Assembly: GCA_023228865.1 (NCBI GenBank)
Contig: JALOAH010000005.1
Location: forward strand, 1 to 64,000
Length of the DNA: 64,000 bases
Reading direction: 5' to 3'
DNA from: Porticoccaceae bacterium
GTDB lineage: Bacteria > Pseudomonadota > Gammaproteobacteria > Pseudomonadales > Porticoccaceae
Positions within the stretch are counted from its first letter, which is position 1. Every line of letters starts with the position of its first letter. Below, piece by piece: positions 6,102 to 24,283 of this stretch. Position numbers and translations under genes: made by a program. The notes beneath the pieces are model-generated. The model was given only the letters and a program-made list of their open reading frames with translations. It searched no databases and was not told the origin of the DNA.

Positions 6102-6664
6102 ACACCACAGAACAGGCCGACGACTGGGGACCCCTATCCAGGCTGCCGGGCAATCCACTGATGTGGGTGCTGATTCTGAGCGAAATGCTGGTGTTCGCCG
6201 CTTTTTTTGGTTTGTTCGCCTGGCAGCGTGTCGGTGAGCGTGCAATTTTCGACGCCTCACAGCAACTTCTCGACCCCATAACCGGCGGTATCAACACTAT
6301 GGTACTACTCACCAGCGGCCTGCTGGCAGCGCTGGCGATACAGGCAATTGCCGATAACCGTGTGCACCTGTGCCGGCAACTGCTGGGGGCGGCAATGGCG
6401 CTGGGCACCGTGTTTTGCGCCATAAAGGTTATCGAATACGCCGACAAGCTGACCGCAGGCTTGACCCCTGAAACCAACACTTTCTTCAGTTTTTACTATC
6501 TATTGACGGCTTTCCACTTCGCCCATGTGATATTTGGCCTGTGCCTGCTGGCGCTGGCCTGCTGGCGCACCTCCAGAGCCAATGTGGAAACTGTGACCGC
6601 TTTTTGGCACATGGTCGACCTTATCTGGATCATGCTCTACCCACTTCTCTATCTGTTGCGATGA
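6089..6664 (+). CDS. norE: NorE, cytochrome c oxidase subunit III-like protein of the nitric oxide reductase cluster
   Basis: A 191-residue membrane protein with five predicted helices. The start MSDLNTTEQADDWGPLSRLPG is followed by NPLMWVLILSEMLVFAAFF, the usual beginning of heme-copper oxidase subunit III homologues, and by FHFAHVIFGLCLLAL. The end FWHMVDLIWIMLYPLLYLLR is the NorE signature. Subunit III homologues of nor clusters are accessory: they aid activity or assembly of NorCB but carry no redox centres. The frame extends upstream to 5912, but the internal ATG at 6089 gives the family's proper N-terminus and the 13-base overlap. It is followed 10 bases later by norF. Confidence 0.85.
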   Translation: MSDLNTTEQADDWGPLSRLPGNPLMWVLILSEMLVFAAFFGLFAWQRVGERAIFDASQQLLDPITGGINTMVLLTSGLLAALAIQAIADNRVHLCRQLLGAAMALGTVFCAIKVIEYADKLTAGLTPETNTFFSFYYLLTAFHFAHVIFGLCLLALACWRTSRANVETVTAFWHMVDLIWIMLYPLLYLLR

Positions 6665-6674
6665 CATCGAGATA

Positions 6675-6974
6675 ATGCTGGACGAAACCCTGCCCGGAAA
6701 AAACCGCCTGTTGCGCACCTGGCTTGCGCTGATGCTCTTGACCTTGATTTCCATGCTGTCGGCGCTGGCCAGCGCCACGGACTGGTTGCCGCTGCCGATC
6801 TGGGGAGCACTTCTGGTATTAGTCAGCACCGGTTTCAAGGTTCAGCAGGTATTGATGGTCTACCTCAATCTGCGTGTCTCCAGTGGGGGCTGGAAGGGCG
6901 GCTTCCTGTGCCTGTTGGCGGCGATTCTGCTACTGATTTTTTCCGGTTACCTGGCGGCGCGCTATGCGGGGTAG
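6675..6974 (+). CDS. norF: NorF-like small membrane protein (subunit IV-type)
   Basis: A 99-residue protein with three hydrophobic helices (about residues 13-33, 38-58 and 75-96). The middle contains STGFKVQQVLMVYLNLR, close to the FK-x-x-x-V-x-x-x-F-M-x-L-R pattern of prokaryotic subunit IV/NorF proteins. It lies 10 bases after norE on the same strand, which is the usual norEF arrangement. NorF is needed for full nitric oxide reductase function in some denitrifiers, but its mechanism is unclear. The gene ends 21 bases from the convergent gene at 6996. Assignment rests on size, topology and position. Confidence 0.75.
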   Translation: MLDETLPGKNRLLRTWLALMLLTLISMLSALASATDWLPLPIWGALLVLVSTGFKVQQVLMVYLNLRVSSGGWKGGFLCLLAAILLLIFSGYLAARYAG

Positions 6975-6995
6975 CGGCTATCTGTTAGTGCAAGA

Positions 6996-7259
6996 TCAGT
7001 CGGGAAAGTCGGGGTCAACGGGCACAGAAGCATGTGAATCCCTGCGCGCCCAGCGCTCCAGCGCCCTGCAGCCGCGCATCAGCACCCAGACCAGCGGCGG
7101 CGCCATCAACAATAAGCCGACGCCCCAATCGAAGTGATTGATCGCCAGGACAAAGGGAATAATGGTTGCCGCACACAGGAGCAAGGCCAAGGCCAGCGCT
7201 ACGGCGAGGCGGACACTTGTTGTGGCGGATTTTGGTTGCTGTTGACCCTGGTTGTTCAT
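6996..7259 (-). CDS. Small two-helix membrane protein downstream of norD
   Basis: 87 residues: a short polar N-terminus (MNNQGQQQPKSATTS), two hydrophobic helices (about 16-40 and 44-62) and a charged tail ending DSHASVPVDPDFPD. I do not recognise a family. It starts 1 base after the norD stop codon on the same strand, so it is almost certainly co-transcribed and probably translationally coupled with norCBQD. Position suggests a role in maturation or membrane placement of the reductase, but that is inference only. It converges with norF. Confidence 0.55.
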   Translation of the reverse strand: MNNQGQQQPKSATTSVRLAVALALALLLCAATIIPFVLAINHFDWGVGLLLMAPPLVWVLMRGCRALERWARRDSHASVPVDPDFPD

Positions 7260-7260
7260 A

Positions 7261-9195: not shown

Positions 9196-9207
9196 GGGGA
9201 AAACCTG

Positions 9208-10026
9208 TCAGTCTTCGCCGAATGTGGCGCGAATCACTTCCATCAAGCCTTCCTGGACATCTGGCTCGTCACTCAATGGTTCCACCAGGGTCGCCAGAGC
9301 GGCCTGGAGCACAGGCATGCCATTGGCGATAAGCGTGGCGCAATAAATCAACAGTCGCGTCGACACGCCCTCCTCCAGATCCTGCCCCTTCATGGCCCGC
9401 AGTCGTGCCGCGAGGTTTACCAGGGCTGCGCACTGCTGTGGCGGTAGACCGCTCTCTCTGGCGACAATGTCGCGCTCCAGATTGGCTGGCGGAAAATCAA
9501 AACTCTTGGCGACAAAACGCTGTCGTGTACTGGGCTTAAGGGATTTGAGAATATGCTGGTAACCAGGATTGTAGGATACCACCAGCATGAAGTCATTCGG
9601 GGCTTCAAGGAGTTCACCGGTTCGCTCCAGGGGCAACAGACGGCGGTCGTCGGTCAATGGATGCAGCACCACAGTTACGTCTTTGCGGGCTTCTACCACT
9701 TCGTCGAGATAGCAGATTCCGCCGCTGCGCACGGCCTCGGTCAATGGCCCGTCCACCCAGCGGGTCTCGCCACCCTGCAGCAGGTAGCGCCCGGTCAGAT
9801 CCGCGGCCGTGAGGTCGTCGTGGCAAGAAACCGTAAATAACGGGCGTCCTAGCTTTGCCGCCATATGGGTAACAAAACGGGTTTTGCCGCAGCCTGTAGG
9901 CCCCTTGAGCAACAGGGGAAGACGTTGGCGATAAGCCTGTTCGAACAGCTCGCATTCATTGCCTACGGGCTGGTAAAACGGAACATCCCCCCGGATCGAT
10001 GCACCCGCTCTTGCCGGGTTGCTCAT
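9208..10026 (-). CDS. norQ: NorQ, MoxR/CbbQ-type AAA+ ATPase
   Basis: A 272-residue AAA+ ATPase. Walker A is GPTGCGKT (residues 42-49) and Walker B is GGICYLDEV (D108, E109); sensor-1 is around VVSYNPGYQ, and STRQRFVAKSFDFP is the CbbQ/NorQ-type arginine-finger region. CbbQ/NorQ ATPases remodel a partner enzyme together with a VWA protein, here NorD encoded just downstream. The target is NorB, encoded 78 bases upstream. The C-terminal domain (VSTRLLIYCATLIANG) is the CbbQ_C region. All key residues are present. Confidence 0.93.
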   Translation of the reverse strand: MSNPARAGASIRGDVPFYQPVGNECELFEQAYRQRLPLLLKGPTGCGKTRFVTHMAAKLGRPLFTVSCHDDLTAADLTGRYLLQGGETRWVDGPLTEAVRSGGICYLDEVVEARKDVTVVLHPLTDDRRLLPLERTGELLEAPNDFMLVVSYNPGYQHILKSLKPSTRQRFVAKSFDFPPANLERDIVARESGLPPQQCAALVNLAARLRAMKGQDLEEGVSTRLLIYCATLIANGMPVLQAALATLVEPLSDEPDVQEGLMEVIRATFGED

Positions 10027-10104: not shown

Positions 10105-11466
10105 TTAGCCATTACCAGCTGTCGCCGCCTGCTGCATGCCGGAACTGGAGGTAGAGGCCTGCTCCCTGGCGGGGCCGAAAATGGCGATGAAAAAGACGGT
10201 GGCGGCGATGGCGACCACAACCCCGGCACCCAGACGCATGTAATAAAACAGTTGTAGCTGATCCTGCACCTCCATGTAATTCATACCCAGCACCCGTTGC
10301 AGATGTGTTTGCACGACACCGGCAAAGGTCAAGGTAAACGTCATAAAACACATGGCCGATGTCATCAGCCAGAAACTCCACATGTTGAGGATTTGGTTGT
10401 AGGGCTGCACTCGCCGCAACTGCGGCATGGCATAGGTGATGACGGCAATAACAGTCATGACGTAGGCACCAAAGAAGGCCAAATGGCCATGGGCAGCGGT
10501 GACTTGAGTACCGTGGCTATAATAGTTGACGAAAGACAGGGTATGCATGAAACCCCAAACGCCGGCACCGAAAAAGGCCAGTGTGGCGCTGCCCAGAGTC
10601 CACAGCATGGCGGCCTTGTTAGGATGGTTGCGCCGCCCTTTCCAGAACATAAAAAAGGCGAACATGACCATGGCAAAAAATGGCAATACTTCCAGTGTCG
10701 AGAAGATGCTTGACAGTGGCTGCCAGTAGCCGGGAGCACCAATCCAGTAGTAGTGATGCCCAGTGCCCAGGAGACCGGAAAACAAGGCTAAACCGATGAT
10801 AACGTAAAGCCACTTCTCAATGATCTCACGATCCACACCGGTCATTTTGATCAACAGGTATGCCAGTAGCGACGCCATGATGAGTTCCCACACACCTTCC
10901 ACCCACAGGTGCACCACCCACCACCAGTACAATTTGTCCACGGCAAGATTGCTGGGGTTGTAGAAGGCAAATAACCAAAACACTGCGGCGAGCCACAAGC
11001 CGAGCATCAACACCATATTTATCGCCGTTTTGCGTCCCTTGATGAGTGTCATACTGGTGTTGTAGAGAAACATCAGAAAGGAAATGGTAATGAGGATTTT
11101 CGACCACAGGGGCTGCTCGAGAAATTCCCGACCCTCGTGAATCCCCAGCTGATAGCTCAGCAGTGCACCAGCACCAGCCACTGCAAAAATAGCCAGCTGG
11201 AGATAGGCAATCAGCGGACTGTGTATTTCAGTTTCCGCCTCTTCTGGCATCAGATAGTAGGTGCACCCCATAAAACCAATCAACAACCACACCACCAGTA
11301 AGTTGGTATGACTCATGCGCATGATATGGAAGGGCATGGCTTCAGCCAGGAATTCAGGCATAACATACACAGTGCCCGCCATAATGCCGAATACGACCTG
11401 CAGCGCAAATAGCGCCATTGCGACCGCAAAGAACGGGTAGGCCACCCGCTGTGTTTCGTATTTCAT
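10105..11466 (-). CDS. norB: NorB, cytochrome bc-type nitric oxide reductase catalytic subunit
   Basis: A 453-residue, 12-helix inner-membrane protein of the heme-copper superfamily. The heme b ligand H53 lies in MRMSHTNLLVVW. The non-heme iron site is formed by H186 in HLWVEGVWE with H237 and H238 in GTGHHYYWIG; E190 in the same helix is the conserved NorB glutamate. H326 and H328 in TAAHGHLAFFG ligate the hemes. It reduces NO to nitrous oxide using electrons from NorC. It is the short, cytochrome c-dependent form, not the quinol-dependent qNor, because there is no N-terminal extension and a norC gene precedes it. Confidence 0.95.
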   Translation of the reverse strand: MKYETQRVAYPFFAVAMALFALQVVFGIMAGTVYVMPEFLAEAMPFHIMRMSHTNLLVVWLLIGFMGCTYYLMPEEAETEIHSPLIAYLQLAIFAVAGAGALLSYQLGIHEGREFLEQPLWSKILITISFLMFLYNTSMTLIKGRKTAINMVLMLGLWLAAVFWLFAFYNPSNLAVDKLYWWWVVHLWVEGVWELIMASLLAYLLIKMTGVDREIIEKWLYVIIGLALFSGLLGTGHHYYWIGAPGYWQPLSSIFSTLEVLPFFAMVMFAFFMFWKGRRNHPNKAAMLWTLGSATLAFFGAGVWGFMHTLSFVNYYSHGTQVTAAHGHLAFFGAYVMTVIAVITYAMPQLRRVQPYNQILNMWSFWLMTSAMCFMTFTLTFAGVVQTHLQRVLGMNYMEVQDQLQLFYYMRLGAGVVVAIAATVFFIAIFGPAREQASTSSSGMQQAATAGNG

Positions 11467-11517
11467 CGAACAGATCCTCTTACAGTAAACGTGGTGCGTT
11501 GATTGCCTGATAGCGTA

Positions 11518-11970
11518 CTAGCCCGCCGGTGTCGGCGGCCAGTTTTGCGTATTGATGGCATCGGTCCACTGGAAAAAGTCCACCAGGGCATCCAGCTCTT
11601 CTTCGCTCAAATCGAATTTGGGCATCACACGGCGACCGGGAACATTGAGGGGCTGAGCCCTAATCCAGGCTTTAAGGCTGGCGCGGGCGGCTTCAGGGTT
11701 TTCGCGCCCGCCGTAGCGTGTCCAGACATTGCCTATTTCGGGGGCGAAATAGGCGCCCTCACCGAGAATACTGTGGCAATTAATGCAACTGTTTTTTTCC
11801 CACACATGCTTGCCGTGTTTGACCTGGTCGGTCAACCCTTCTTTATCTGTCGACACATTGACCATGTACCAGTGCGTATGGCCGGTAAGGCCGGCAAAAA
11901 GCAGGAAAAAAAACAGCGATCCGCCATAGAATATATTGCGTGCCGCCGACTTGGTGAGAGCTTCGGCCAT
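11518..11970 (-). CDS. norC: NorC, membrane-anchored cytochrome c subunit of nitric oxide reductase
   Basis: 150 residues with one N-terminal membrane anchor (about 12-32) and a periplasmic cytochrome c domain. The heme-binding motif is CINCH (C62, C65, H66) and the likely axial methionine is M116 in RRVMPKFD. It passes electrons from periplasmic carriers to NorB. It is the first gene of the leftward norCBQD operon, 51 bases before norB. Its upstream region contains clustered CATGT/ACATG half-sites but no FNR-type box. The family call is secure. Confidence 0.95.
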   Translation of the reverse strand: MAEALTKSAARNIFYGGSLFFFLLFAGLTGHTHWYMVNVSTDKEGLTDQVKHGKHVWEKNSCINCHSILGEGAYFAPEIGNVWTRYGGRENPEAARASLKAWIRAQPLNVPGRRVMPKFDLSEEELDALVDFFQWTDAINTQNWPPTPAG

Positions 11971-12318: not shown

Positions 12319-13518
12319 GTGCAAAATTCTAATGTCAGACAGGTCGGGACACCCCGACCGATATTGAGGTTGGCATTTCGACCCCTGTTTTTTGGGGGAA
12401 CCCTGTTTTCCCTGGTTGCGATACTCTGGTGGGTAATTTTCTGGCTACACCCGTCTCCCTGGCAGCCCTATGGCGGCCCGACCTGGTGGCACGGCCATGA
12501 GATGCTATTCGGCTTTGGCAGCGCCATTGTGGTGGGTTTCCTCCTTACCGCAGTGCAAAACTGGACAGGAGTGCCGGGGCTGCGCGGAGGCCTGCTGGCG
12601 CTGCTGGCCGGCGTTTGGTTGCTGGCTCGCCTGTTGCTGGCATTTGGCGCAGGATTGCCCAGAGGATTGCTGGTTGCCGTGGATCTCTCCTTCCTGTTGC
12701 TTGCTGCCGCAGCGATGGCCTATCCAGTGGTGAAGGTCAAACAGTGGCGCAATATCATGTTCGTACCCATGCTGTTTGTGCTGGCCTTATTAAATGGTGC
12801 CAGCCATTGGGGAGTGTTGAGGGATCGACCGGATCTCGCCCTGCAAGCGCTCCATGGCGCCGTTTTGCTCATCACCCTGTTTATTGTCGTCATCGGCGGT
12901 CGAGTTATACCCTTTTTCACCGCCAACGGCACAGGTTGTCAGCGACTGCCAGCGAAACGCTGGCTGGAAGTGCTCAGTGGCGCCTCCATGATACTGCTGG
13001 TGATCAGCGCCTTCATCGGCTTCTCCAGGGTGCCCGCGGCGATCATGGTGCCTTTGTGCGTTGCCGCTGCTGTAGTTAACGGCTGGCGCTTCCTGCGCTG
13101 GGGCTACCAGCACTGCTGGAACGTGCCCCTGCTGTGGTCACTGCATCTATCCTATGTCTTCATTCCAGTGGGATTATTGGCTCTCGCCTTCTATGCCGCC
13201 GGGTTGCTGGCCAATGTCAGCATCGCCTTGCACTGTTTCACCGTCGGCGCTATCGGCGGCATGATCCTGGCGATGATTTCCCGTGTCACCCTTGGCCATA
13301 CGGGTCGACCATTGTGCCCGCCTCGGGCAATGGCCGCCGCCTACATCCTGATCCTGAGCGGCGCGGCCATCCGTGTGCTGGTGCCCGCTTTGTTGCCGGC
13401 ACTATCCCAATGGGGCATCGGACTTTCTGGCGTTCTGTGGCTACTGGCCTACGGCTTATTCTGTTTTTACTATGGCCCCATGCTGCTGACCCCTCGGGTT
13501 GACGGCGGCAATGGCTAG
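12319..13518 (+). CDS. nnrS: NnrS family heme/copper membrane protein
   Basis: 399 residues with about 12 hydrophobic helices. It starts with LRLAFRPLFFGGTLFSL, then HPSPWQPYGGPTWWHGHEMLFGFGSAIVVGFLLTAVQNWTG. Conserved polar spots typical of NnrS are WHGHEM, GGRVIPFFTANG and GGMILAMISRVTLGHTGRP. NnrS proteins co-occur with denitrification genes and relieve nitrosative stress; in Vibrio cholerae NnrS protects the cellular iron pool from nitric oxide. The start is GTG with GAGGG 8 bases upstream. It is divergent from norC and is followed by a 40-residue Cys-rich open reading frame. Confidence 0.9.
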   Translation: MQNSNVRQVGTPRPILRLAFRPLFFGGTLFSLVAILWWVIFWLHPSPWQPYGGPTWWHGHEMLFGFGSAIVVGFLLTAVQNWTGVPGLRGGLLALLAGVWLLARLLLAFGAGLPRGLLVAVDLSFLLLAAAAMAYPVVKVKQWRNIMFVPMLFVLALLNGASHWGVLRDRPDLALQALHGAVLLITLFIVVIGGRVIPFFTANGTGCQRLPAKRWLEVLSGASMILLVISAFIGFSRVPAAIMVPLCVAAAVVNGWRFLRWGYQHCWNVPLLWSLHLSYVFIPVGLLALAFYAAGLLANVSIALHCFTVGAIGGMILAMISRVTLGHTGRPLCPPRAMAAAYILILSGAAIRVLVPALLPALSQWGIGLSGVLWLLAYGLFCFYYGPMLLTPRVDGGNG

Positions 13519-13882: not shown

Positions 13883-14012
13883 AATGGCACTGACTTAGCA
13901 CCAAAGCCACAATTTTCGTCATTCCCGCGTAGGTGGGAATCTAAGAGTCTCGGCACCCTAGAAAAACTGGATTCCCGCCTACGCGGGAATGAAGGCTTAG
14001 GTCAGTGCCATT
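13883..14012. repeat. REP-doublet / MITE-like element, copy B
   Basis: A 130-bp nested inverted structure. The outer 12-bp ends AATGGCACTGAC (13883-13894) and GTCAGTGCCATT (14001-14012) are perfect inverted repeats. The inner 22-bp arms at 13920-13941 and 13970-13991 pair with one mismatch, and each also folds on itself (ATTCCCGC stem, 4-base loop). The inner hairpins match those at 5486-5550, but the outer ends differ. The 139 bases before it (13744-13882) show only a weak TGACCTGA/TCAGGTCA dyad. Confidence 0.7.
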
Positions 14013-14064
14013 TGGGTTCTGTTGATCTTTAAGGCTCGACCCCTTTAACTTAACGTTTTGCGTC

Positions 14065-14316
14065 TCACAACGTGAAAAATATGCGCTCGGCTGCACTGCG
14101 CTGTCAGGCCGACTCAACCTCGCACAGAGGCACTGCCTCAGCGGCCACTTTCAAACCGGCCGGATCTATCGCCTGCAGCAATTGGCCGACCACTTTCACC
14201 AAACCTTCGCTGGATACACTGCCCAGGCCGCTGCCGAGGATCTCGAGGCCCAGGAAATTCACGCTTGCAGATATTTCATCGATGCCAACAGCCCCAAACC
14301 CGTGGGCAGGTTCGGA
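14065..14316 (-). pseudogene. 3' remnant of a zinc/quinone-oxidoreductase-type MDR dehydrogenase
   Basis: Read leftward from 14316, 70 codons resemble the C-terminal end of medium-chain (quinone oxidoreductase-like) dehydrogenases: LEILGSGLGSVSSEGLVKVV, then PAGLKVAAEAVPLCEVESA. The next codon is TGA where the family has Trp (E-x-A-W), and the same frame continues QRSAAERIFFTL to a second stop at 14065. ERIFFTL matches the usual GRRIVFT-type terminus. An in-frame stop directly precedes the segment and no start or N-terminal domain is present. So this is a decayed 3' fragment with a Trp-to-stop change. Rightward frames over the same bases are shadows. The original substrate is unknown. Confidence 0.5.
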
Positions 14317-14464
14317 TTATGCAGTAACGGTTACCAGCAATGCGAAATCCGTCCTTCACCAGTCAGGATGTATCCCTGTTTGAGAAAAATTATCCTATTG
14401 TCTGGCATGGCAACCCAGAGCCTTAAATCCATGTCGAGTACTCTTCCCGATTGAACCCAGGGCT

Positions 14465-15343
14465 TCAGTGCTCCAGATCCTTGGTGCGATAGGAGCCCGG
14501 CGTCACACCCAGAACCCGCTTGAATGTTGACACCATATGAGCCAGAGATGAGAACCCGCATTCAGCAGAGATTATGGTCAATGACAAATTGCTGCTTTCA
14601 ATCAAGTCATGCGCCGTTTTTACGCGATGCTGGATAATATAGCGGTGGATAGGCATGCCCATGACCGCTTGAAAGCGCTGACGCAACAAACTGGCCGACA
14701 TTCTTTGCAGCTGCGCCAGCTGGGCGATCGTCAGTGGCTCACCAATACGGGCATGGATATATAACACCGTCTCATTGACTGCAGGGTCAGAAGTTCGAAT
14801 CACTTCCCCACTGCGATTTCCCAACGCAAGCCACTCCAGCTGAGCCGTGATGGCATCAATAATGCGTTCCACATACCGCACGGGGCGCGGGGCAGTTGGC
14901 GAAGTTGCGATCTCAAATATCTGCCGTGCCAGCACCGGCAAAAGTGCATCATTGATCTGTAACGGCACGCGATGGCGGCCAATTATCTTTTTCAAAACAT
15001 GCTGGGTGTCTCCTGAGGTGTACAGGAGATGGAACCACAGAGCCCGATCCTGGCTACGGAAACGTACCTCGGTTCCACTGGGGTGTAACATCACGCTATA
15101 CGGTACAGCGCTGGCTTCCGGACTCACACTCTGACCCGTGGGATATGCATCAATCGCTCTGCCGTAATGCACGGCGATCATCGCCATGGGCAAGGGCGGA
15201 ACAAAGAATCCCGTTGAAGGCTCGGTGACATAGGACTCAATCGCCAGGTGGTTGGAGCCACGATTCTCCCACTGCGCTACCGGCTTGGCATCTACACCCT
15301 GCTGAACCAGTGCCGAGGTCTCTTTGAACAGCGGATCGATCAT
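14465..15343 (-). CDS. AraC/XylS-family transcriptional regulator
   Basis: 292 residues. The N-terminal 170 form an effector domain (PPLPMAMIAVHYGRAIDAYP; PSGTEVRFRSQDRALWFHLL) and the C-terminal 100 form the double helix-turn-helix. The first helix-turn-helix includes IGEPLTIAQLAQLQRMSASL and RQRFQAVMGMPIHRYI; the second ends in SAECGFSSLAHMVSTFKRVL, then GVTPGSYR, the hallmark second AraC helix. It is the last gene of the leftward operon that starts at 21044, 36 bases after the ferredoxin reductase, so it probably controls that operon (inference). The effector is unknown. Confidence 0.88.
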   Translation of the reverse strand: MIDPLFKETSALVQQGVDAKPVAQWENRGSNHLAIESYVTEPSTGFFVPPLPMAMIAVHYGRAIDAYPTGQSVSPEASAVPYSVMLHPSGTEVRFRSQDRALWFHLLYTSGDTQHVLKKIIGRHRVPLQINDALLPVLARQIFEIATSPTAPRPVRYVERIIDAITAQLEWLALGNRSGEVIRTSDPAVNETVLYIHARIGEPLTIAQLAQLQRMSASLLRQRFQAVMGMPIHRYIIQHRVKTAHDLIESSNLSLTIISAECGFSSLAHMVSTFKRVLGVTPGSYRTKDLEH

Positions 15344-15379
15344 CCTGTTCCCTCCCCAGGATATTCGGGCGTCCCTGGC

Positions 15380-16603
15380 TTATACCGCTAGGGACACCAT
15401 TTCCTCTTCCAGATCGCAGAGCTGCGCAGTCGAGACCACCGATTTGCGAACTATCATTTGCTTGCCCGCCGCAAACTCCAAAGGTGCGTCCACTGTCTCA
15501 ACCGCCTGAACGCAGCCTCCTTTCATATGGAAGGCGACGAAAGTATCTGTATCACTGCGCACAACCACATCGTCGACATCGAAGGACATACCTACAATCT
15601 GGATCTTGAGATCAAACTGATGCGACCAAAACCAGGGTACTTCGGGTTTGGGTCTGGGTTTGCCCATTATCGCAGCAGCAGCCTGCTTCGCCTGCTCCAG
15701 CGCGTTGGGGACGCTGCGCAAACAAAACATGCGGCTATCGTAGAGCGGCATGGGGCGGCAGGTGACATCTCCGATGGCGAAAATCGCCGGGTCGTCGGTA
15801 CGCGCATCCTGATCCACCAGAATCCCGCTGCAACAGGCTAGCCCGGCGTCAACAGCCAGCTGCATATTGGGTATAACCCCTACACACACGACTACGGCGT
15901 CACATGGAACCAGACTACCATCCACTAACCGAATACCACTTACTTTACCTTGGCTCTCTTCGATCCGTGCCACTTGTACACCGAACCGGAATTCAACCCC
16001 TTTTGCCTCATGGGCACGCTGCAGATAGCGGGATAACTGGGGGCTCGCCACAGACTCCAGGACACGTTCAGCCTGTTCGATGATGACCGCTGTACCGCCC
16101 AGGCCAACTGTGCTGGCTGCCACCTCCAGGCCGATGTAACCCCCGCCAATCAGCGCAATCCGCTTTCCAGGCCCGATCGCCGGCCTGAGCCCATCAACAT
16201 CGCCGACTGTATGCAGGCGATGTACACCTTCCAGATTGATGCCCGGCAGGTCGATGTCCCGCGGTCGTACTCCAGTGGCGATAACCAGAGTATCGTAGGA
16301 ATACTCCGCGCGATCTGCCAGCCGTATGTATTTTCCGGCTCGATCCACCTCCTCAACCACGGCTCCCAGTTCCAGATTGATATCGTTGTTGTGGTAGAAC
16401 TCATCCGGCCACATCTTCAGTCCTTCGAAATCCATTTTTTCCGCCAGGTAGGCTTTGGATAATGGCGGCCGTTGATAGGGCGAAACCGACTCCGCACCCA
16501 GCAGGATGATGTCGCCGCCAAATTTCAGTTTGCGTAGCTGCGCAGCCAAGGCTGTTCCCGCATGACCCGCACCCACTATAACAACACGCTCATTTACACT
16601 CAT
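15380..16603 (-). CDS. FAD-dependent ferredoxin reductase (putidaredoxin-reductase type)
   Basis: 407 residues. The FAD motif VVIVGAGHAG (G11, G13, G16) opens the protein, LLGAESVSPYQRPPLSKAYL follows, the NADH-binding Rossmann motif IALIGGGYIGLEVAA lies mid-protein, and IFAIGDVTCRP is the second FAD contact. This is the CamA/ThcD/BphA4 family, which passes electrons from NAD(P)H to a [2Fe-2S] ferredoxin. The ferredoxin gene lies 34 bases upstream. Such pairs normally serve a P450 or a Rieske oxygenase, yet neither is encoded nearby; the adjacent redox proteins are two CrtI-like flavoproteins. Family certain, terminal acceptor unknown. Confidence 0.92.
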   Translation of the reverse strand: MSVNERVVIVGAGHAGTALAAQLRKLKFGGDIILLGAESVSPYQRPPLSKAYLAEKMDFEGLKMWPDEFYHNNDINLELGAVVEEVDRAGKYIRLADRAEYSYDTLVIATGVRPRDIDLPGINLEGVHRLHTVGDVDGLRPAIGPGKRIALIGGGYIGLEVAASTVGLGGTAVIIEQAERVLESVASPQLSRYLQRAHEAKGVEFRFGVQVARIEESQGKVSGIRLVDGSLVPCDAVVVCVGVIPNMQLAVDAGLACCSGILVDQDARTDDPAIFAIGDVTCRPMPLYDSRMFCLRSVPNALEQAKQAAAAIMGKPRPKPEVPWFWSHQFDLKIQIVGMSFDVDDVVVRSDTDTFVAFHMKGGCVQAVETVDAPLEFAAGKQMIVRKSVVSTAQLCDLEEEMVSLAV

Positions 16604-16637
16604 TTTGCGTCACCTCTTTTCAAGCTGATGGCACCTT

Positions 16638-16994
16638 TTAGGGTTTATCGTTGCCAGGACTGTAATCCTGCCACTCCTCTTCCGGTCTGAGGGTGCGAAT
16701 GACCAAGCCATCCAGCTCCTCTGAAATGGTAATCTGGCACGACAAGCGTGAGTTCGGTTGCCATGTTTCCTGCAGGGACAGCAGCCCTTTCTCTATCTTG
16801 GAGGCAACCCCGGTTTTTTCCAGCCATTTGGGGTCGACATGAACATGGCAGGCAGCACAGGTGCAGACGCCACCACAATCGGATTCGATCTCCGGTACGC
16901 CATTGGCTCTGGCGCCAGCCATAACCGACACACCGGGCGCCACATCAACCACCCGAACATTATTGTCCGAATCCACATAGGTTATGCTGACCAT
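16638..16994 (-). CDS. [2Fe-2S] ferredoxin, adrenodoxin/putidaredoxin type
   Basis: 118 residues. The cluster loop CGGVCTCAACH supplies C40, C46 and C49, and the fourth ligand is C86 in SRLSCQI; C44 is the non-ligand Cys common in this family. The end DGLVIRTLRPEEEWQDY is slightly longer than usual. It carries single electrons from the reductase encoded next door (15380) to an unidentified acceptor. Its start base coincides with the last base of the upstream small-protein gene, so translation is coupled. Cofactor assignment is secure; partner identity is inference. Confidence 0.92.
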   Translation of the reverse strand: MVSITYVDSDNNVRVVDVAPGVSVMAGARANGVPEIESDCGGVCTCAACHVHVDPKWLEKTGVASKIEKGLLSLQETWQPNSRLSCQITISEELDGLVIRTLRPEEEWQDYSPGNDKP

Positions 16995-17332
16995 TATTCA
17001 ACGACCTCCGTATACTTTTTTCTGACTAACCCCATCATCCTCGGCAAGCGATACAAGCCTAGCAAGACAATCAGTTTCACAATGTACCAGCCCATTTTCA
17101 ATGCCATCCCCAAGCCAACCGACTTGGCGATGAAATCACCTGCCTCCCGGCTGGTGGCGGTATTGAGTATCGCACGCCAGTCATCGAGGTGGACAACAAC
17201 CTCGTACTCCCATGGCGCGGGAGCGTCGACAATGCCCGTCAGCACCACCCCTTTTTCGTTACGTTCCAGTTCGGATCTGTCGAGCCCCATGACCAGCTCT
17301 CTGCTACCAAGACCTTCAGACCAGAAATTCAT
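16994..17332 (-). CDS. Small protein of the flavoprotein/ferredoxin operon, paralogue 1
   Basis: 112 residues, no recognised family. N-terminal MNFWSEGLGSRELVMGLDRS and a central PWEYEVVVHLDDWRAI are followed by a hydrophobic stretch (about residues 75-98, IVKLIVLLGLYRL) and a basic tail, which suggests a peripheral or single-pass membrane protein. The neighbouring product (17329) shares the W-S-x-G-L-G start, the SEL and L-x-G-I blocks and a W-E-Y, so the two are tandem paralogues. It overlaps that gene by 4 bases and abuts the ferredoxin gene. Could be a membrane-docking or substrate-handling subunit (inference). Confidence 0.55.
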   Translation of the reverse strand: MNFWSEGLGSRELVMGLDRSELERNEKGVVLTGIVDAPAPWEYEVVVHLDDWRAILNTATSREAGDFIAKSVGLGMALKMGWYIVKLIVLLGLYRLPRMMGLVRKKYTEVVE

Positions 17333-17652
17333 ACTGCCTCCTGCCGACGGAACCTGCCGACGGTTTTTTCAAATACCACCTTGCAAATCAGTCCGGGCAA
17401 GATACTGATGAGTCGAAGCAAAAACGGCATCAGTATGCCTTTATGTTCGGCAAGATAGGTTATCGTTTCCCGATGGGTCAGGAGCTTCAAAAAAGCAACC
17501 AGATCCTGAGGACTGAGTTTTATCGAGTATTCCCAGAAAACCGGCTCGATAATACCTTTGAGCATGAGATGTTCTGGTGCCCTGCTCAACTCTGAATCCT
17601 TGAGCTCAATAGGTAGCCGCTGTTTACCCAAACCTTTAGACCAGACAATCAT
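17329..17652 (-). CDS. Small protein of the flavoprotein/ferredoxin operon, paralogue 2
   Basis: 107 residues, no recognised family. It starts MIVWSKGLGKQRLPIELKDS, has FWEYSIKLSPQDLVAFLKLL in the middle and a hydrophobic amphipathic C-terminus (PFLLRLISILPGLICKVVF) with a basic end. The same layout occurs in paralogue 1. Its ATG overlaps the stop of the flavoprotein gene at 17649 by 4 bases, and its own stop overlaps paralogue 1 by 4 bases. Such tight coupling argues for a stoichiometric complex with the flavoprotein or ferredoxin. No cysteine or histidine cluster suggests a cofactor. Confidence 0.55.
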   Translation of the reverse strand: MIVWSKGLGKQRLPIELKDSELSRAPEHLMLKGIIEPVFWEYSIKLSPQDLVAFLKLLTHRETITYLAEHKGILMPFLLRLISILPGLICKVVFEKTVGRFRRQEAV

Positions 17653-19298
17653 AGTAGGAGCCCCTTTTCTCGTGCGGCGATGACCTCATCGGGCTCTGTC
17701 CACCAGATATTCAGCCCCATGTCCTGGGCGACGGTCTTGGCCGCATTGTAACCACCGCCGAAAGTGATCATTCCACCCGGAAAGGTACTCGCACCGCATA
17801 CATACAAACCCTTGATTGGGGTTTTATTGGCTGAACATTGAACATTGGGTCGCGAATATCCCATCTGTGTCATGACATACGCACCGTGCTTGAATGAACC
17901 ACGCTTCATTTGCGGGATTTTCATTTCGATATAAACAGGCGTGTAATCAAAACGACGAATGATGTCTGCAGGATCGAAATCCACCATATACTCAGCCAGC
18001 TTGGCGAGCAGACGGCCACCATACTGGGTGGAAATATCGGCCCACTTTCCTGCGGCTGGCTCATAGGGTACACAGGCTTCTATTCGGCATACTGCGCTGC
18101 CTGGTTCAGTCTCCTGAGGCGCCTGGTTGGGGTCGAGATCCGTGGTAAAAGTTACATGTCCGATATCGTGCAGTAGACGCCCTTCCATCACCTCATTGAA
18201 ATGAGTTACAACATCCTCAGGGGTTTCCACGCCAAATACCCGAATGAAAGCAGTTTTAACCGCCGGATCATCATCCTCAGCCTTGAAGCGAGGCTTTTTC
18301 CTGAGGCCGAGATGGCACAGAAATAAGGAACTGGCCTCCCACTCCCAATTGCGAGCCGTGTTGAGGCATAGCCTGGAGCGCTGCTGCATCTCTTCTTCGG
18401 GAATGAATGTGCCAAAAGTGGTTGTCGGATCTGTCGAGGTGACGACGGATCTGGCATCCACTCTGATTAATGGCCCCTCCATGCCGGTAGGTGCAACCTC
18501 GACACCGACAGCTGCGCCGCCCTCCATGATAATGCGTCTGACTTCATGGTTTTCCAGAACCTCCATACCTGCGAGAATCCCCGCTTTCTGTAGAGTAGAG
18601 GACAGACGGTGCGACCCACCGCGTACCAGTGTGGCGTTCAACATGCGGTTGAAGTAAAGGGGTACCAGATAGCTTGAGTTGGTCTCGGAAGGATCGATGC
18701 CCCACATACACACCAGATAGAGCAATAGTGCGCTCAGTTCAGGGGTTTCAAAGCCCCAGCTGTGGCAGATCTCTAGCGGCGTCAGTTCAGACACTTCAAG
18801 AACCTTCTTGCCTAGTTCGCTTTCCATATAGGTACCGGCCAGCTCTGCGGAGCCCACCGGTTTACCGTAGGTTGCCGGAATCAGATATTCATTAGACATC
18901 TGCTCATATTCAAGATAAATTTCACGGAACCGTTCCGCATCTCGTGGTGACACTCTACAGATGGACTCGACGCTTTTTTCCAGATCGGCATGCAGCGTAA
19001 TCGCCGTACCATCCTTCTTCAGAATGGCTGCCGACACATCCGGCCTGATATAAACGCAACCATCCGCCTCCAGCCCGAGATCCTTGTATGGCGGCGCCAC
19101 ATCCAGCATCATCATATAATTGGCATGGAGGTTGAACCGAAACCCGGAGAATTCCTCAGTTACCAGGGCACCACCGGTTTCATGGCGTCGTTCCACGACA
19201 ATAACCTTGGCACCAGCTCTGGCCAGATAGGCCGCAGTGGTAAGGCCATTATGCCCCGCTCCTATCACCACAACATCGCATTGTTTGACTTCAGACAT
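17649..19298 (-). CDS. CrtI/phytoene-desaturase-like FAD oxidoreductase, copy 1
   Basis: 549 residues. The N-terminal dinucleotide motif VVVIGAGHNGLTTAAYLARAG is followed by VIVVERRHETGGALVTEEF, the usual CrtI/PDS-like beginning. The C-terminal FAD contact KGLYVCGASTFPGGMITFGG is intact. The family includes carotenoid desaturases and isomerases, retinol saturase and many uncharacterised amine-oxidase-fold enzymes. No phytoene synthase or other carotenoid gene occurs in the window, so carotenoid synthesis is unlikely. It is 48 bases downstream of a distant paralogue (19347) and overlaps the next small gene by 4 bases. Substrate unknown; a lipophilic alkene or alicyclic compound would fit the family (inference). 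Confidence 0.82.
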   Translation of the reverse strand: MSEVKQCDVVVIGAGHNGLTTAAYLARAGAKVIVVERRHETGGALVTEEFSGFRFNLHANYMMMLDVAPPYKDLGLEADGCVYIRPDVSAAILKKDGTAITLHADLEKSVESICRVSPRDAERFREIYLEYEQMSNEYLIPATYGKPVGSAELAGTYMESELGKKVLEVSELTPLEICHSWGFETPELSALLLYLVCMWGIDPSETNSSYLVPLYFNRMLNATLVRGGSHRLSSTLQKAGILAGMEVLENHEVRRIIMEGGAAVGVEVAPTGMEGPLIRVDARSVVTSTDPTTTFGTFIPEEEMQQRSRLCLNTARNWEWEASSLFLCHLGLRKKPRFKAEDDDPAVKTAFIRVFGVETPEDVVTHFNEVMEGRLLHDIGHVTFTTDLDPNQAPQETEPGSAVCRIEACVPYEPAAGKWADISTQYGGRLLAKLAEYMVDFDPADIIRRFDYTPVYIEMKIPQMKRGSFKHGAYVMTQMGYSRPNVQCSANKTPIKGLYVCGASTFPGGMITFGGGYNAAKTVAQDMGLNIWWTEPDEVIAAREKGLLL

Positions 19299-19346
19299 TT
19301 GAATTATCTCCTATTGATAGATACTTCTTCAGCTATTGCTCTATGC

Positions 19347-21044
19347 TCAGTCGACGCTAATCCGCCGCTCGACGCCTTCCCGGCGCCACAGCTCTTTTGC
19401 ACCATCCATCGCCTTGGCCTGCCACCAATCCGGTCTTGTCATCCCCAGATCGCCGACAACTTCACAGGCGGCAACATAAGCAGACCCCAGGTGGGTAAAA
19501 TTCGATGTCGCCAGCGACTGACAGATATACAGACTGTCAATTGGTGTTCTCGGCGCGTCACACCCCGCAAAGGGCTTCCAGCTCCACATTTGCGACTCGG
19601 TAGTGGCACCACTGGGATGCATATTGCCAAACGAGTGGGGGTTGCGGCGCACGTAATCATGGGGGGTATTTACATAACGCCCCACCTTGGCAGTCTTCAG
19701 GTTTGGCAGGTACTGAACCAGAACCTCCTCAACCTTGTCGGCGTAGGATTCTCTGATGTCATCCCAGGCGCGAGGTCCACCCAGGGAGTTCAGTTTGTAG
19801 GGTACGAAGCACCAGGACATGACCGTAAACATACCGGGAGGCGCCTGGGTAGGATCGGCGATGCAATAATTGGCGCAGCCACCCCAGGCGACAGGGGGAT
19901 CAGGCAGAATACCACGGACATCGCAATGATCGAACAGCGTGGTCGCCTCGTCCACGGTTTCAGCGCCGAAGTTGAATGAAAAGGTATTATTGGCCTCGGG
20001 GAATTTTTCTGCACAGGCAAAATTGGGGCGCTCATTCATCACATAATAATTGGTAAACAAGGTGCCACCACGATAGTCGTAGCGCTTCAGGGAAGCCCGT
20101 ACCGATGCCGACAAGTGCTCTTCACCCACCATATCGAAGAAGGTCGTCTGGGCACTAAGATCGCTGATCACCGCTTTGGTGGCGGTGAATGCGGTATCCG
20201 GATAACAGGATAGGGATGATAAAACGACGCCCTTGGCCTGTTTGTCTTCAATTACAATTTTGTCAACTGGACAGTTGTAGAAAATCTTGCCGCCGTGGGT
20301 AACGAAACACCGCACCAGCGAATGAACCACATCATGGCTGCCACCCCGTGCGGTATAAAAAGACGAGGTGAAGCCACAGAGGGTGACAAGAATCGATATC
20401 GGTCCTGCCAACCGGCTCTTGAGATCGTCTGCAGCCATTGCCGCCGAACTCAGCACACCCACCTTGATTTGCTCATGCTCGAACAGAGAATCGACAAACT
20501 CGAAGCCGGTCATCCACAGCCAGTCTTTGGGGAACACAGGCACGTCACTGAATTGTTCGAGAAATTGCAGGAAGCTCTCGTCAGTATGCTTCGAGCACAA
20601 CGCCTGCTGGAGAAGATCGTCTTGAAAGGGGGCAAGGAAGTTGGTGATTTTACGGTAGATTTCGGCATCCTTTGGCGAAATGCGCTTCCACATTTCATAG
20701 GTCTTGCGCACGTCATACCAGCCAAACATGGCCGCATTGCCATCGAGAAACGGATAGAAGTAGCCATACTCGGCACCGGGCGGTTTGCACAGCTCCAATC
20801 CGAACTTTTCGAGCTCCAGGTCAACCATGGCCGGCCCGAAGTGGGTCACCAACAGTGACGCGTGCATATTCAACTTCACACCTGGGAAGAGAACTTCTTC
20901 AGTGGCACAGAAGGTTCCGGACTCGTCTCTACGCTCAAAAATCGCCACGCTGAGTCCGGCCTTCTGCAGATATGCGCCGGTAGCCAGACCATTCAAACCA
21001 CCGCCCACGATGATTATGTCGTATTCACTCTTTGGATTTGACAT
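19347..21044 (-). CDS. CrtI/phytoene-desaturase-like FAD oxidoreductase, copy 2 (divergent C-terminus)
   Basis: 565 residues, first gene of the operon, with a strong GGAGGAG ribosome binding site. The FAD motif [20 protein letters not shown] and the ERRDESG turn are intact. At the C-terminus the family's glycine-rich H-P-G-G segment is replaced by [20 protein letters not shown], so FAD contact or the active site differs from copy 1. Identity between the copies looks low outside the FAD-binding parts, so they are probably two different subunits or two different steps rather than a recent duplication. No signal peptide. Function unknown; same operon context as copy 1. Confidence 0.8.
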
Positions 21045-21305: not shown

Positions 21306-21319
21306 TTGATCTTGATCAA
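21306..21319. promoter_or_regulatory. FNR/Anr/Dnr-type box
   Basis: TTGAT-CTTG-ATCAA matches the FNR consensus TTGAT-N4-ATCAA exactly. It lies about 262 bases upstream of the start at 21044, farther than the usual -41.5 position unless the transcript has a long leader. Together with the nor cluster it suggests oxygen- or NO-linked control (inference). A chance match in AT-rich DNA is possible. Confidence 0.5.
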
Positions 21320-21382
21320 TTACGGTTTTATTTTTCGGCGACCATTGCCTGTAACAGGACACAAGGCTATAGAAAGCACAAC

Positions 21383-21434
21383 GAATTTAAGGATATGGAG
21401 AGTGCAATGAATTTAAGGATATGGAGAATGTAAT
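21383..21434. repeat. Two-copy 26-bp tandem direct repeat
   Basis: Units at 21383-21408 and 21409-21434 share GAATTTAAGGATATGGAGA and differ at three positions near the end. Direct repeats upstream of an operon that encodes its own AraC regulator are candidate AraC binding sites, though these lie about 340 bases from the start codon. Confidence 0.6.
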
Positions 21435-21633
21435 AAATTTATTGTTATCGGTGATGGCTTGGCGACCTCTGTTCAGATCCGCAGTGCCTTAACAGTCCCT
21501 TGTGGTGTAACTGGATCAATTGTTTGCACCGTTTTCTGCAATGCATGTCGCCAGGGCTTGCGGGCATCTTTTTTCCCATGGCTAACCAGACACAGATTAC
21601 TCATCAAAGCACGCGGAGAATTGGTGCAGGATC

Positions 21634-21695: not shown

Positions 21696-22802
21696 TTAGG
21701 GCAGCAATACCGGCTTGATACAACCACCTTTGAGCTGTTCGGTTACCGCTGTGTTGATGTCATCAAAGGCAAAGGTTTTGCACAGTTTATCGAAGGGAAA
21801 ACGGCCATCCATATAAAGATCCACCATTTCCGGAATAAACTGCGCCGGATCGGCATCGCCTTCGGTAATGCCCATCACCTTGATACCTTTGGACAACATG
21901 GCAATGACATTGAAACTCAAGGATGGCTTGTCGGCTTTGGGAATACCCACCAGCCCCAGGGTGCCGAGCTGAGCCATGGCGGGAACAATACCGTCGATGA
22001 CAACCTGCAACGCGGTGGTGTCAAAGGCGTAATTGAGTCCTTCGGGAGCAATGGCGAGAATGGCGGCGGTGAGATCTTCTGTGGCCATGGGGTCGATGGC
22101 GTGGGTGGCGCCCAGGGACAACGCCAGTTCACGGCGGCTGGCGTGGGGTTCTACCACAATAATTTTGCTGCAACCCTGAACCGCGCCGCCCATAACAGCC
22201 GCCAAGCCCACAGTGCCACCACCGGCAACCAGCAGGGTGCTGCCTTTTTTCGCGGCAAAGGCTTTGATGATGCTGCCAGCGCCGGTCTGAATACCACAGC
22301 CCAGGGGGCCGAGCAGTTCCAGGGGCGCATCGTTGCGCACTTTGATGGTATTCGCCTTGTTGGCAATGGCATAGGTGCCAAAGGATGACTGGCCAAAAAA
22401 GTGGCTGCCGATGTCTTCGCCGTCTTTATGGAGCGCCTTGGTGCCATCGAGGCGCCCGCACAAGAAGTTCAGCGGCATGAAGTTGTTGCAATAGCTGGGG
22501 TGGTGTTCTTCACAGGTATGGCAGGTGCCACAGGCGTGGAAAGAGAGCACCACATGGTCGCCAGGCTGGAGGCCGGTGACATTGCTGCCAACTTTTTCGA
22601 CGATGCCTGAGCCTTCGTGACCGAGAACCACCGGCAGGGCAACCGGCAAGTCCTGATCCCTGGCGGCGATATCCGAGTGGCAAACGCCAACACCGACAAT
22701 TTTGACCAGAACCTCATCCGCCTTGGGGTCGTCAATGGTGAGTTGCTCAATGGCGAAATCCTGGCCAGGATTGCGCACAACTGCTGCTTTAATCGTATTC
22801 AT
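21696..22802 (-). CDS. Zinc-dependent alcohol dehydrogenase (aryl/allylic alcohol type)
   Basis: 368 residues of the medium-chain dehydrogenase family. Catalytic zinc ligands are C41 (GVCHSD), H62-E63 (GHEGSG) and C169 (GPLGCG). The structural zinc is held by C91, C94, C97 and C105 in CGTCHTCEEHHPSYC. The coenzyme motif is VAGGGTVGLA (about 192-201). The length and the GPLGCGIQTGAG segment match the benzyl/geraniol alcohol dehydrogenase subgroup. Oxidation of a primary allylic, aryl or long-chain alcohol to an aldehyde would feed the aldehyde dehydrogenase encoded 14 bases upstream. The exact substrate is not readable. Confidence 0.85.
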   Translation of the reverse strand: MNTIKAAVVRNPGQDFAIEQLTIDDPKADEVLVKIVGVGVCHSDIAARDQDLPVALPVVLGHEGSGIVEKVGSNVTGLQPGDHVVLSFHACGTCHTCEEHHPSYCNNFMPLNFLCGRLDGTKALHKDGEDIGSHFFGQSSFGTYAIANKANTIKVRNDAPLELLGPLGCGIQTGAGSIIKAFAAKKGSTLLVAGGGTVGLAAVMGGAVQGCSKIIVVEPHASRRELALSLGATHAIDPMATEDLTAAILAIAPEGLNYAFDTTALQVVIDGIVPAMAQLGTLGLVGIPKADKPSLSFNVIAMLSKGIKVMGITEGDADPAQFIPEMVDLYMDGRFPFDKLCKTFAFDDINTAVTEQLKGGCIKPVLLP

Positions 22803-22816: not shown

Positions 22817-24283
22817 TTAACCGAGTTTAATGCAAACTGATTTGGATTCTGTGTACATCAGGACACCATCTTCGCCCACTTCACGGCCAAGCCCGGACTC
22901 CTTGAAACCGCCGAAGGGCATGGCGGGATCGACAACGAAGTAACAGTTGGTCCAGACAGTGCCCGCATCCAGGGCTTCAGCAAACTGATGGCAGGTATTG
23001 ATGTTTTGCGACCAGACATTGGCACCGAGGCCATAGCGGCTTGAATTGGCCAGCTGGATCGCCTCCTCCATGGTACTGAAAGGCGTTGCAGACAGCACCG
23101 GACCAAAAATTTCTTCCTGAAACACGCGGTGATTGGGCTTGGTATTGGCGAGAATGGCCGGCTCCACATAATAACCTGGGCCTCTGGTGTTGCCGCCGGT
23201 AAGGAGTTCAGCGCCCTCTTCCTGACCGACACGAACGTATTCCATAATGCGGTTTTGCTGTTGCCGTGACACCACGGGACCAATCATGGTTTCGGGATTC
23301 ATGCCATCGCCAATAGGCAGGTTTTTCGCCACTTCAGCGATGCCGTTGAGCACCACATCGTAGACATCCTTATGAACCAGAAGCCGTGACCCGGCAAAAC
23401 AGGTTTGTCCTGAATTGAAGAAAATGGACATGGCCGCGCCGGGAATGGCCTGTTCCATATCGGCATCGGGCATGATGATGGTGGGGGATTTGCCCCCCAG
23501 CTCCAGACTGACCCGTTTCATGTCATCCGCAGAGGTGCGCAGAATATGCTTGCCCACAGCCGTAGATCCCGTGAAGGCCACCTTGTCGACATCGGTATGG
23601 GAAATCAGCGCTTGACCGGCTGTTTGTCCGTAACCGGTGATGATATTCAATGCCCCTTCGGGAAGCCCGGCTTCCAGCGCCAGCTCCCCCAGACGAAGGG
23701 CTGTGAGAGGCGTAATTTCGGAGGGTTTCAACACCATGGTGCAACCAGCGGCGAGCGCTGAGGCGACTTTCCAGGCAGCCATGGCGAGGGGATAATTCCA
23801 AGGCACGATTGCACCGATAACCCCCACAGGCTGGCGCAATGTATAGGCGAGATACTGGCTGCCATCGCCGGAAACCGGCAGGGTTTTGCCATAAATTTTG
23901 GTGCACCAGCCGGCCATGTAACGGAAGATTTCAACAGTTGAGGGAATATCCACCATCAGCGCCAGGTGCTTGGGCTTGCCATTGTTGAGGCATTCCAGTG
24001 TTGCCAGTTCGTCGGCATTGTCTTCAACCAGCTGGGCAATTCTTTCGAGAATTTTACTGCGATCTATCGGCCGCATACGACGCCAGGCTGGATTATTGAA
24101 GGTGTTTCTGGCCGCGCGAACGGCGCGATCCACGTCGGTTTCAGTGCCGTCCTGAACCTGGGTAAAAACATCGCCGGTGGCGGGGTTGATCAGTTCGATG
24201 TGTCCGCCCCCTGAAGCGTCCTGCCACTCGCCGCCGATAAGCAATTTCCGGTTTGGTAACTTGATTGATGCAATAGTGTTCAT
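22817..24283 (-). CDS. NAD-dependent aldehyde dehydrogenase
   Basis: 488 residues, normal for the superfamily. The catalytic nucleophile is C295 in FFNSGQTCFAGSRL, the general base is E261 in LELGGKSP, and N163 in PWNYPLAMAAWK completes the site; FTGSTAVG is the NAD loop. The end EIFGPVLSATPF and MPFGGFKESGLGRE are typical of the betaine/aromatic aldehyde dehydrogenase branch. Converts an aldehyde to its acid, most likely the product of the alcohol dehydrogenase encoded next in the same transcript. It is the first gene of the pair, transcribed from a MerR-type promoter near 24446-24479. Confidence 0.88.
   Translation of the reverse strand: MNTIASIKLPNRKLLIGGEWQDASGGGHIELINPATGDVFTQVQDGTETDVDRAVRAARNTFNNPAWRRMRPIDRSKILERIAQLVEDNADELATLECLNNGKPKHLALMVDIPSTVEIFRYMAGWCTKIYGKTLPVSGDGSQYLAYTLRQPVGVIGAIVPWNYPLAMAAWKVASALAAGCTMVLKPSEITPLTALRLGELALEAGLPEGALNIITGYGQTAGQALISHTDVDKVAFTGSTAVGKHILRTSADDMKRVSLELGGKSPTIIMPDADMEQAIPGAAMSIFFNSGQTCFAGSRLLVHKDVYDVVLNGIAEVAKNLPIGDGMNPETMIGPVVSRQQQNRIMEYVRVGQEEGAELLTGGNTRGPGYYVEPAILANTKPNHRVFQEEIFGPVLSATPFSTMEEAIQLANSSRYGLGANVWSQNINTCHQFAEALDAGTVWTNCYFVVDPAMPFGGFKESGLGREVGEDGVLMYTESKSVCIKLG

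Follow-up and report, generated by a model that had tools for sequence, protein, structure and literature searches.

What does an operon make that couples two phytoene-desaturase-like flavoproteins to a ferredoxin and a ferredoxin reductase but holds no oxygenase for that pair to feed? The question is raised by positions 14465-21044, on the minus strand, of a 64,000-nt stretch of DNA from a Porticoccaceae bacterium (contig JALOAH010000005.1; the full stretch is hereafter called the window). A first-pass annotation of this DNA had listed seven leftward open reading frames (ORFs) and read them as perhaps an undescribed redox system for a lipophilic substrate, possibly a reductive one (a saturase) used under low oxygen. 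All seven ORFs are present on the minus strand across this span, transcribed in the order flavoprotein of 565 amino acids (aa), flavoprotein of 549 aa, small proteins of 107 and 112 aa, ferredoxin, reductase and AraC-family regulator. Judged by sequence, the operon is ctmABCDEF, another case of a system already described as the limonene dehydrogenase cluster ctmABCDEFG of Castellaniella defragrans 65Phen (PMC4109377), and we put the probability that its product is a cyclic-monoterpene dehydrogenase that works without oxygen and is an orthologue of limonene dehydrogenase CtmAB at roughly 0.88. The lipophilic substrate is probably a terpene; the system as such is not a new one.

Correspondence with the limonene dehydrogenase cluster

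In the parts of the C. defragrans report available to us (PMC4109377), ctmA (1698 base pairs, bp) and ctmB (1650 bp) encode two flavin adenine dinucleotide (FAD) oxidoreductases of the phytoene dehydrogenase type, ctmE a 2Fe-2S ferredoxin and ctmF an NADH:ferredoxin oxidoreductase, while ctmC, ctmD and ctmG are hypothetical and a LuxR-type regulator also belongs to the cluster. Transposon insertions in ctmA, ctmB or ctmE abolished growth on limonene under both oxic and anoxic conditions and left growth on perillyl alcohol intact, and a 2014 comparison of three strains reported the cluster from C. defragrans only (PMC4109377). By scanning genome contigs with the 549-aa protein we obtained 11 loci out of 18 pattern-matching stretches, including that of C. 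defragrans DSM 12141 (L005), against which identities were calculated gene by gene.

The ctmA homologue (19347..21044, minus strand, as are all genes of the operon), a flavoprotein of the limonene dehydrogenase alpha type, is 88% identical over 565 aa to its C. defragrans counterpart, and the beta-type ctmB homologue (17649..19298) is 91% identical over 549 aa, with gene lengths of 1698 and 1650 bp, respectively, in both organisms. They are followed by homologues of ctmC (17329..17652; 107 aa, 71%, without a Pfam family) and of its paralogue ctmD (16994..17332; 112 aa, 79%), then by a ctmE homologue encoding a putidaredoxin-type [2Fe-2S] ferredoxin of 118 aa (16638..16994; 76%, Pfam Fer2) and a ctmF homologue encoding a CamA-type NAD(P)H:ferredoxin reductase of 407 aa (15380..16603; 72%, Pyr_redox_2 and Reductase_C). 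The top PDB matches of the CtmE homologue are ferredoxins of the putidaredoxin/terpredoxin type, its cysteines form, by eye, a CX5CX2C motif with a distal Cys, and putidaredoxin reductase is among the PDB matches of the CtmF homologue. The A-B-C-D-E-F order, the lengths of the A and B genes and the B/C, C/D and D/E overlaps (4, 4 and 1 bp in the window) are all shared with C. defragrans; the remaining three gaps of the window operon measure 48, 34 and 36 bp. In a tree of 60 rows (56 of them different), the window and L005 sequences form two pairs, one of CtmA and one of CtmB, each supported at 100/100.

The two clusters also differ. The last gene of the window operon encodes an AraC-family regulator of 292 aa (14465..15343; HTH_18/HTH_AraC), in place of the LuxR-family gene of C. 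defragrans; directly upstream in the window stand genes for an alcohol and an aldehyde dehydrogenase, whereas those of C. defragrans are spread over its island; and the window has an FNR-type box upstream of ctmA. A 53% homologue of the AraC regulator adjoins ctm on the opposite strand in a Sterolibacterium metagenome-assembled genome (MAG; L007).

Flavoprotein class and the search for oxygenases

Both window flavoproteins match Amino_oxidase/NAD_binding_8 in Pfam/NCBIfam and belong to the same superfamily as the CrtI/CrtO carotenoid desaturases and ketolases, from which they differ in carrying a covalent flavin motif and in falling far below the NCBIfam cut-offs of the listed carotenoid families. 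A carotenoid enzyme was accordingly rejected as a candidate (crtI_fam, 95 bits for B and 51 for A against a cut-off of 238; CrtO, 152 for both against 1000), and the tree also speaks against it, pairing the two proteins, at 100/100, with C. defragrans CtmA and CtmB. Pfam revealed no carotenoid genes in the window ORFs submitted to it (39, a subset of the ORFs in the window).

For the sterol delta-24 desaturase, the accessible text of PMC11061730 gives the consensus G-F-L/R-X-N/S-T/L-H-A around the flavin-carrying His and says that it is present in CtmAB too. The window CtmB motif, GFRFNLHA, fits this consensus exactly; the CtmA motif, GVKLNMHA, departs from the printed form, as does that of C. 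defragrans CtmA (GVKLNLHA), with the His aligned. Across the window and ten loci the flavin-linking His is aligned in 22/22 CtmA and CtmB rows. The same alignment holds 31 CtmA-like database proteins, drawn from 120 matches listed and including four identical to locus rows, and there the flavin column shows His in 23, Cys in six and Gln in two. The proteins with Cys or Gln (P0074, P0077, P0081, P0109, P0118, P0120; P0101, P0105) are all distant CtmA-like ones, and their sequences suggest another flavin linkage or none.

CtmE and CtmF belong to the families of putidaredoxin and putidaredoxin reductase, a pair that supplies electrons to a P450; unlike that pair, they sit in an operon without a P450. 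The absence of an oxygenase noted at first pass held up in a wider search, with none of the 39 ORFs given to Pfam being a P450 or Rieske protein and neither type found in a motif scan of window positions 1-40000. The view that the ferredoxin belongs with the flavoproteins, and not with an oxygenase, is borne out. Nor does an oxygenase appear to be a regular neighbour in relatives: signs of a P450 near ctm were seen in only 2 of 13 related loci (L009, by Pfam applied to 20 neighbouring ORFs chosen by greatest frame length, a choice that may include antisense frames, and L079, by motif), and no convincing Rieske motif was found in the 13 loci plus window positions 1-40000 (249,464 bases), one Rieske-like match in L001 being judged a chance one. 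The P450 motif of L079 lies about 2.3 kb downstream of ctmE.

A family of small proteins beside paired flavoproteins

The order A-B-C-D was found again in other genomes, so chance does not account for it. Genes for CtmC and CtmD follow ctmB in all 13 related loci (the 11 above plus those of genomes G894 and G895), although the sequence of L010 starts within ctmB and the contig of L003 stops within ctmD; gene counts at these loci come from tblastn places and ORF lists. The core ABCD also occurs in genomes titled as alpha- and betaproteobacterial. The two small proteins of the window are paralogues (31% identical), and 12 invariant columns are common to 41 homologues. Pfam, run on 60 small-protein homologues up to an expectation value (E) of 1, gave no convincing family (best 0.018, for one member). 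AlphaFold2 models (predicted local distance difference test 82.7 for CtmC and 76.4 for CtmD; predicted template modelling score 0.56 each) predict a small domain of beta-sheet together with a long, hydrophobic helix at the C terminus, and Foldseek found no known fold for either model at E ≤ 0.001; COMM-domain rows matching the CtmC structure were too weak to use. Two database proteins, P0146 and P0147, each from one metagenome contig, are CtmC-CtmD fusions, with the CtmD rows landing on the CtmC half in the fusion alignment. Two tandem copies of ctmA stand ahead of ctmB-C-D-E in G894 and G895 (L078 and L079).

When nine genomes were searched with a profile, CtmC/D-like genes turned up in the four ctm genomes and in G031, a genome of the same family as the Sterolibacterium MAG, and none in the four that have only CtmB relatives of 27-29% identity. 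With up to 11 candidates scored per genome, none of 397 other Pseudomonadota genomes had such a gene, C. defragrans, included as the centre of the 398, being the sole carrier. A survey for ctmA gave 2 of 398 genomes in one order (three candidates scored per genome; both already found) and, in a second order, 7 of 96, five of which had been met before. Carriage of ctm on plasmids was considered and dropped, with only relatives of about 28% identity seen, in three Novosphingobium plasmids.

A related gene at a sterol desaturase-like locus

In G031, locus L054 has a CtmC/D-like match (E 1e-11) that stands 136 bp upstream of two paired flavoprotein genes (small gene 9538-9990, alpha 7680-9401, beta 6116-7711, all on the minus strand). 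The calculated masses are 62.7 kDa for alpha and, for beta, 57.0 kDa from an inner Met or 59.4 kDa from the first start; the proteins are 33.9% identical to CtmA, 38.2% to CtmB and 27% alpha against beta, and their motifs read GFLFNTHA and GFRFNLHA. The corresponding values published for the delta-24 desaturase of Sterolibacterium denitrificans, in the text available, are 63 and 57 kDa, 34%, 38% and 26%, with the same consensus (PMC11061730). By these figures the L054 pair fits the sterol delta-24 desaturase closely, and the kind of enzyme that the small proteins accompany probably includes one acting on plant sterols. The desaturase and CtmAB share paired flavoproteins and a covalent flavin on the His of a common motif (PMC11061730), with a CtmC/D-like gene near the locus that fits the former, while differing in identity (33-38%), in chemistry (desaturation rather than hydroxylation) and in the number of small proteins, one against two. 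No CtmE or CtmF homologue was found in the 16-kb L054 stretch.

Two further groups stand in the same genome. At L056 a weaker small gene precedes another pair (E 1.1e-5 among ORFs of the fetched stretch; missed by the whole-genome search at E 0.1), and at L055 (3610-9026) a third flavoprotein group comprises one CtmB-like protein and two larger ones that are much alike, near which no small partner gene was found.

Proposed reaction and competing explanations

The reaction is most likely hydroxylation, with water, of an allylic methyl of a cyclic monoterpene, and so oxidative rather than that of a saturase. In the scheme we favour, CtmA and CtmB, each with covalently bound flavin, would abstract a hydride from this methyl, and water would add to the resulting cation to give an allylic alcohol (perillyl alcohol from limonene), in keeping with the hydride transfer and cationic intermediate proposed for limonene dehydrogenase as summarised in the accessible part of PMC11061730. 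Electrons would leave through the ferredoxin CtmE, which CtmF may either drain or prime. According to the portion of PMC12583861 (2025) available to us, the acceptor for the enzyme must have a positive potential, and direct draining to nicotinamide adenine dinucleotide (NAD+) is therefore unlikely. CtmC and CtmD would act as structural partners that keep CtmA and CtmB at the membrane, in which the substrate is dissolved, and the alcohol would pass to the adjoining GeoA-like dehydrogenase and then to the aldehyde dehydrogenase. For C. defragrans, the literature shows that limonene is hydroxylated and that A, B and E are required; in the present host the substrate would be of the same kind. Cleavage of an allylic C-H bond by flavin and water, with neither O2 nor a metal, is rare; the window adds a full ctmABCDEF set near denitrification-type genes, and the Sterolibacterium MAG L007 has one too.

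Several observations pull the other way. By eye, no ctmG-like frame is seen at 13.45-14.47 kb, and neither ctmG nor the LuxR-family gene of the cluster end was found in the window, although these are not catalytic features. Ring-cleavage (mrc) genes and a perillate-CoA ligase were not recognised in the window, where the AMP-binding protein at 38442-40025 was not tested as a ligase. The neighbouring aldehyde dehydrogenase is not a GeoB orthologue, being 39% identical to the copy on C22, the C. defragrans ctm contig, and 50% to another C. defragrans copy. The genes for E and F are less fixed than ABCD: ctmE adjoins the CtmC/CtmD genes in 8 of 12 judgeable loci (L003 is cut off) and is absent beside ABCD in the other 4, and ctmF stands beside them in only 2 (L005, L007). 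CtmE-like ferredoxins and CtmF-like reductases do occur somewhere in 8/8 and 10/10 genomes, respectively, where they may serve other enzymes. Finally, the mechanism of limonene dehydrogenase is taken from citing papers, not from the primary one.

A different reading of the pair is that it desaturates a terpenoid or steroid side chain in the delta-24 manner instead of hydroxylating a methyl. Its attraction is that, apart from CtmAB itself, the nearest relative of characterised function desaturates its substrate and that one Sterolibacterium-family genome holds several such flavoprotein pairs; we nevertheless consider it improbable, for the window proteins are 88-91% identical to CtmAB against 33% and 38% to the desaturase-type subunits, stand apart from the latter in the tree and adjoin a GeoA-like alcohol dehydrogenase, and Pfam recognised no sterol genes in the window ORFs submitted to it. 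The saturase suggested at first pass, an undescribed enzyme receiving NADH electrons through the ferredoxin, seems to us very improbable indeed. The build of CtmE and CtmF is that of a pair supplying a P450 with electrons, so that flow toward the flavoproteins is conceivable, but the described chemistry is an oxidative allylic hydroxylation: the C. defragrans ctmA, ctmB and ctmE mutants lose limonene and keep perillyl alcohol as a growth substrate, which indicates oxidation (PMC4109377, as far as available), and the positive potential of the acceptor (PMC12583861) likewise stands against reduction.

As to the small proteins, allylic dehydrogenases built from paired covalent-flavin proteins may have in CtmC/CtmD a conserved partner. 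We would go further only tentatively, at somewhat less than even odds, and see in them a new family of small, partly membrane-anchored subunits of paired covalent-flavin enzymes that activate allylic C-H bonds without oxygen, with limonene dehydrogenase and sterol delta-24 desaturase as two branches of one multi-subunit class (a flavoprotein pair plus a GLG...W small protein, ferredoxin and reductase being optional). By hydropathy, both CtmC and CtmD retain the hydrophobic C-terminal helix in the six genomes measured, and the 4-bp B/C overlap present in 10/10 loci fits stoichiometric subunits. These points count against the competing view that CtmC and CtmD are maturation factors for flavin attachment, or substrate carriers, and neither anchors nor subunits, a view that we rank lower but take as a serious possibility. 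It draws on their company with covalent-flavin enzymes and their length of about 100 aa. It also draws on the Sterolibacterium relatives, which keep the GLG and W motifs while the C-terminal helix is seemingly absent or shortened; this counts against an anchor as a common role, and because the helix is not clear there, membrane anchoring is suggested for CtmC and CtmD only. In the available account of C. defragrans, the proteome of phellandrene-grown cells contained CtmA, B, E and F and not CtmC or CtmD, and the transposon collection names ctmA, ctmB and ctmE, leaving ctmC and ctmD unnamed (PMC4109377). The enriched sterol desaturase preparation showed, in the part of the source at hand, two major bands near 60 kDa. 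These findings count against a subunit role, and the proteome and the bands are also points for the competing view; proteins so small and hydrophobic readily escape detection, though, and none of the findings is decisive. With a relative of CtmC/CtmD beside a sterol-desaturase-like locus, the family is perhaps a component overlooked in enzyme preparations. In the titles and abstracts listed, CtmC and CtmD were nowhere treated beyond hypothetical, most subscription literature, including the 2018 enzyme paper, lying outside this search; what is new here is that this family of small proteins recurs and is probably linked to the sterol desaturase.

Upstream region of ctmA

A perfect palindrome, TTGAT-N4-ATCAA, at 21306..21319 lies 262 bp upstream of ctmA; we take this FNR-type sequence to be a site for the FNR/ANR/Dnr/FixK regulator family. 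It is the sole perfect match in the window, where 0.09 would be expected and 9 of 100 shuffles contained at least one. The window and ten loci together (245,997 bases, with only 250 bp of upstream sequence for L006) contain five perfect boxes, four of them within 300 bp upstream of ctmA (window, L003, L004 and L011) against an expected 0.013 (Fisher p 1.5e-7, an optimistic value given that the 300-bp limit was set only after a less strict pattern had been run across 700 bp of upstream sequence at 10 loci).

The low-oxygen use proposed in the first-pass annotation fits this setting, and low-oxygen control of the operon may be at work in the present host. Against a general role, the perfect box is absent in C. 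defragrans and six further loci of the ten and in both of two later-fetched loci, leaving 4/13 with the window counted (3/12 related loci); and control by low oxygen is not general because in C. defragrans ctmA, ctmB and ctmE are indispensable for growth on limonene in the presence of oxygen as well. Three 26-bp direct repeats at 21363..21440 (100, 77 and 65% identical to the first copy), between the alcohol dehydrogenase gene and ctmA, are possibly sites for the AraC regulator.

Neighbouring genes

Both dehydrogenase genes are directly upstream of ctmA on the same strand. The first encodes a GeoA-like zinc alcohol dehydrogenase of the benzyl alcohol dehydrogenase subfamily (21696..22802, minus strand), whose best match in the C. 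defragrans genome sits on the ctm contig (C22:34636-35724, 51%) and which has benzyl alcohol dehydrogenase 1f8f among its best PDB matches; judged by gene order against the part of the published table available, that C22 gene should be geoA. The second encodes a StyD-like aldehyde dehydrogenase (22817..24283, minus strand; Aldedh, 599 bits) that perhaps acts in the GeoB role, where the C22 aldehyde dehydrogenase is taken, by order, to be geoB.

Farther along, window positions 803-4629 encode, by Pfam, a DUF7065/DUF7064 protein and two APH-type phosphotransferases (1762-2934 and 3445-4629), and for the two of these that were searched, the DUF7065 protein (37%) and the kinase at 1762-2934 (41%), the best C. 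defragrans matches are again on the ctm contig. These proteins could phosphorylate, hydrate or dehydrate tertiary terpene alcohols; in C. defragrans lysates, monoterpene isomerisation stimulated by adenosine triphosphate has been reported, in the portion of that literature available.

Between these genes and the operon, Pfam identifies a COX3/norE-like gene (5912-6664), a NorQ-type gene (9208-10026) and nnrS (12319-13518, NnrS), around which norD (7261-9195, without a Pfam family at the limit used) and norB with norC (10105-11970) were read from sequence and position. This set makes denitrification plausible, and the host is likely a denitrifier carrying a limonene dehydrogenase orthologue. 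A ZipA gene, also recognised by Pfam in the window, is suggestive of a gammaproteobacterial host. By eye, C. defragrans CtmG (L005, about 13925-14535) resembles a COX3/NorE-type membrane protein, and an ORF overlapping L005 ctmG has a 27% match to the window COX3/norE-like gene; such a protein would be an odd partner for a terpene dehydrogenase, and is perhaps a link to nitric oxide or the respiratory chain.

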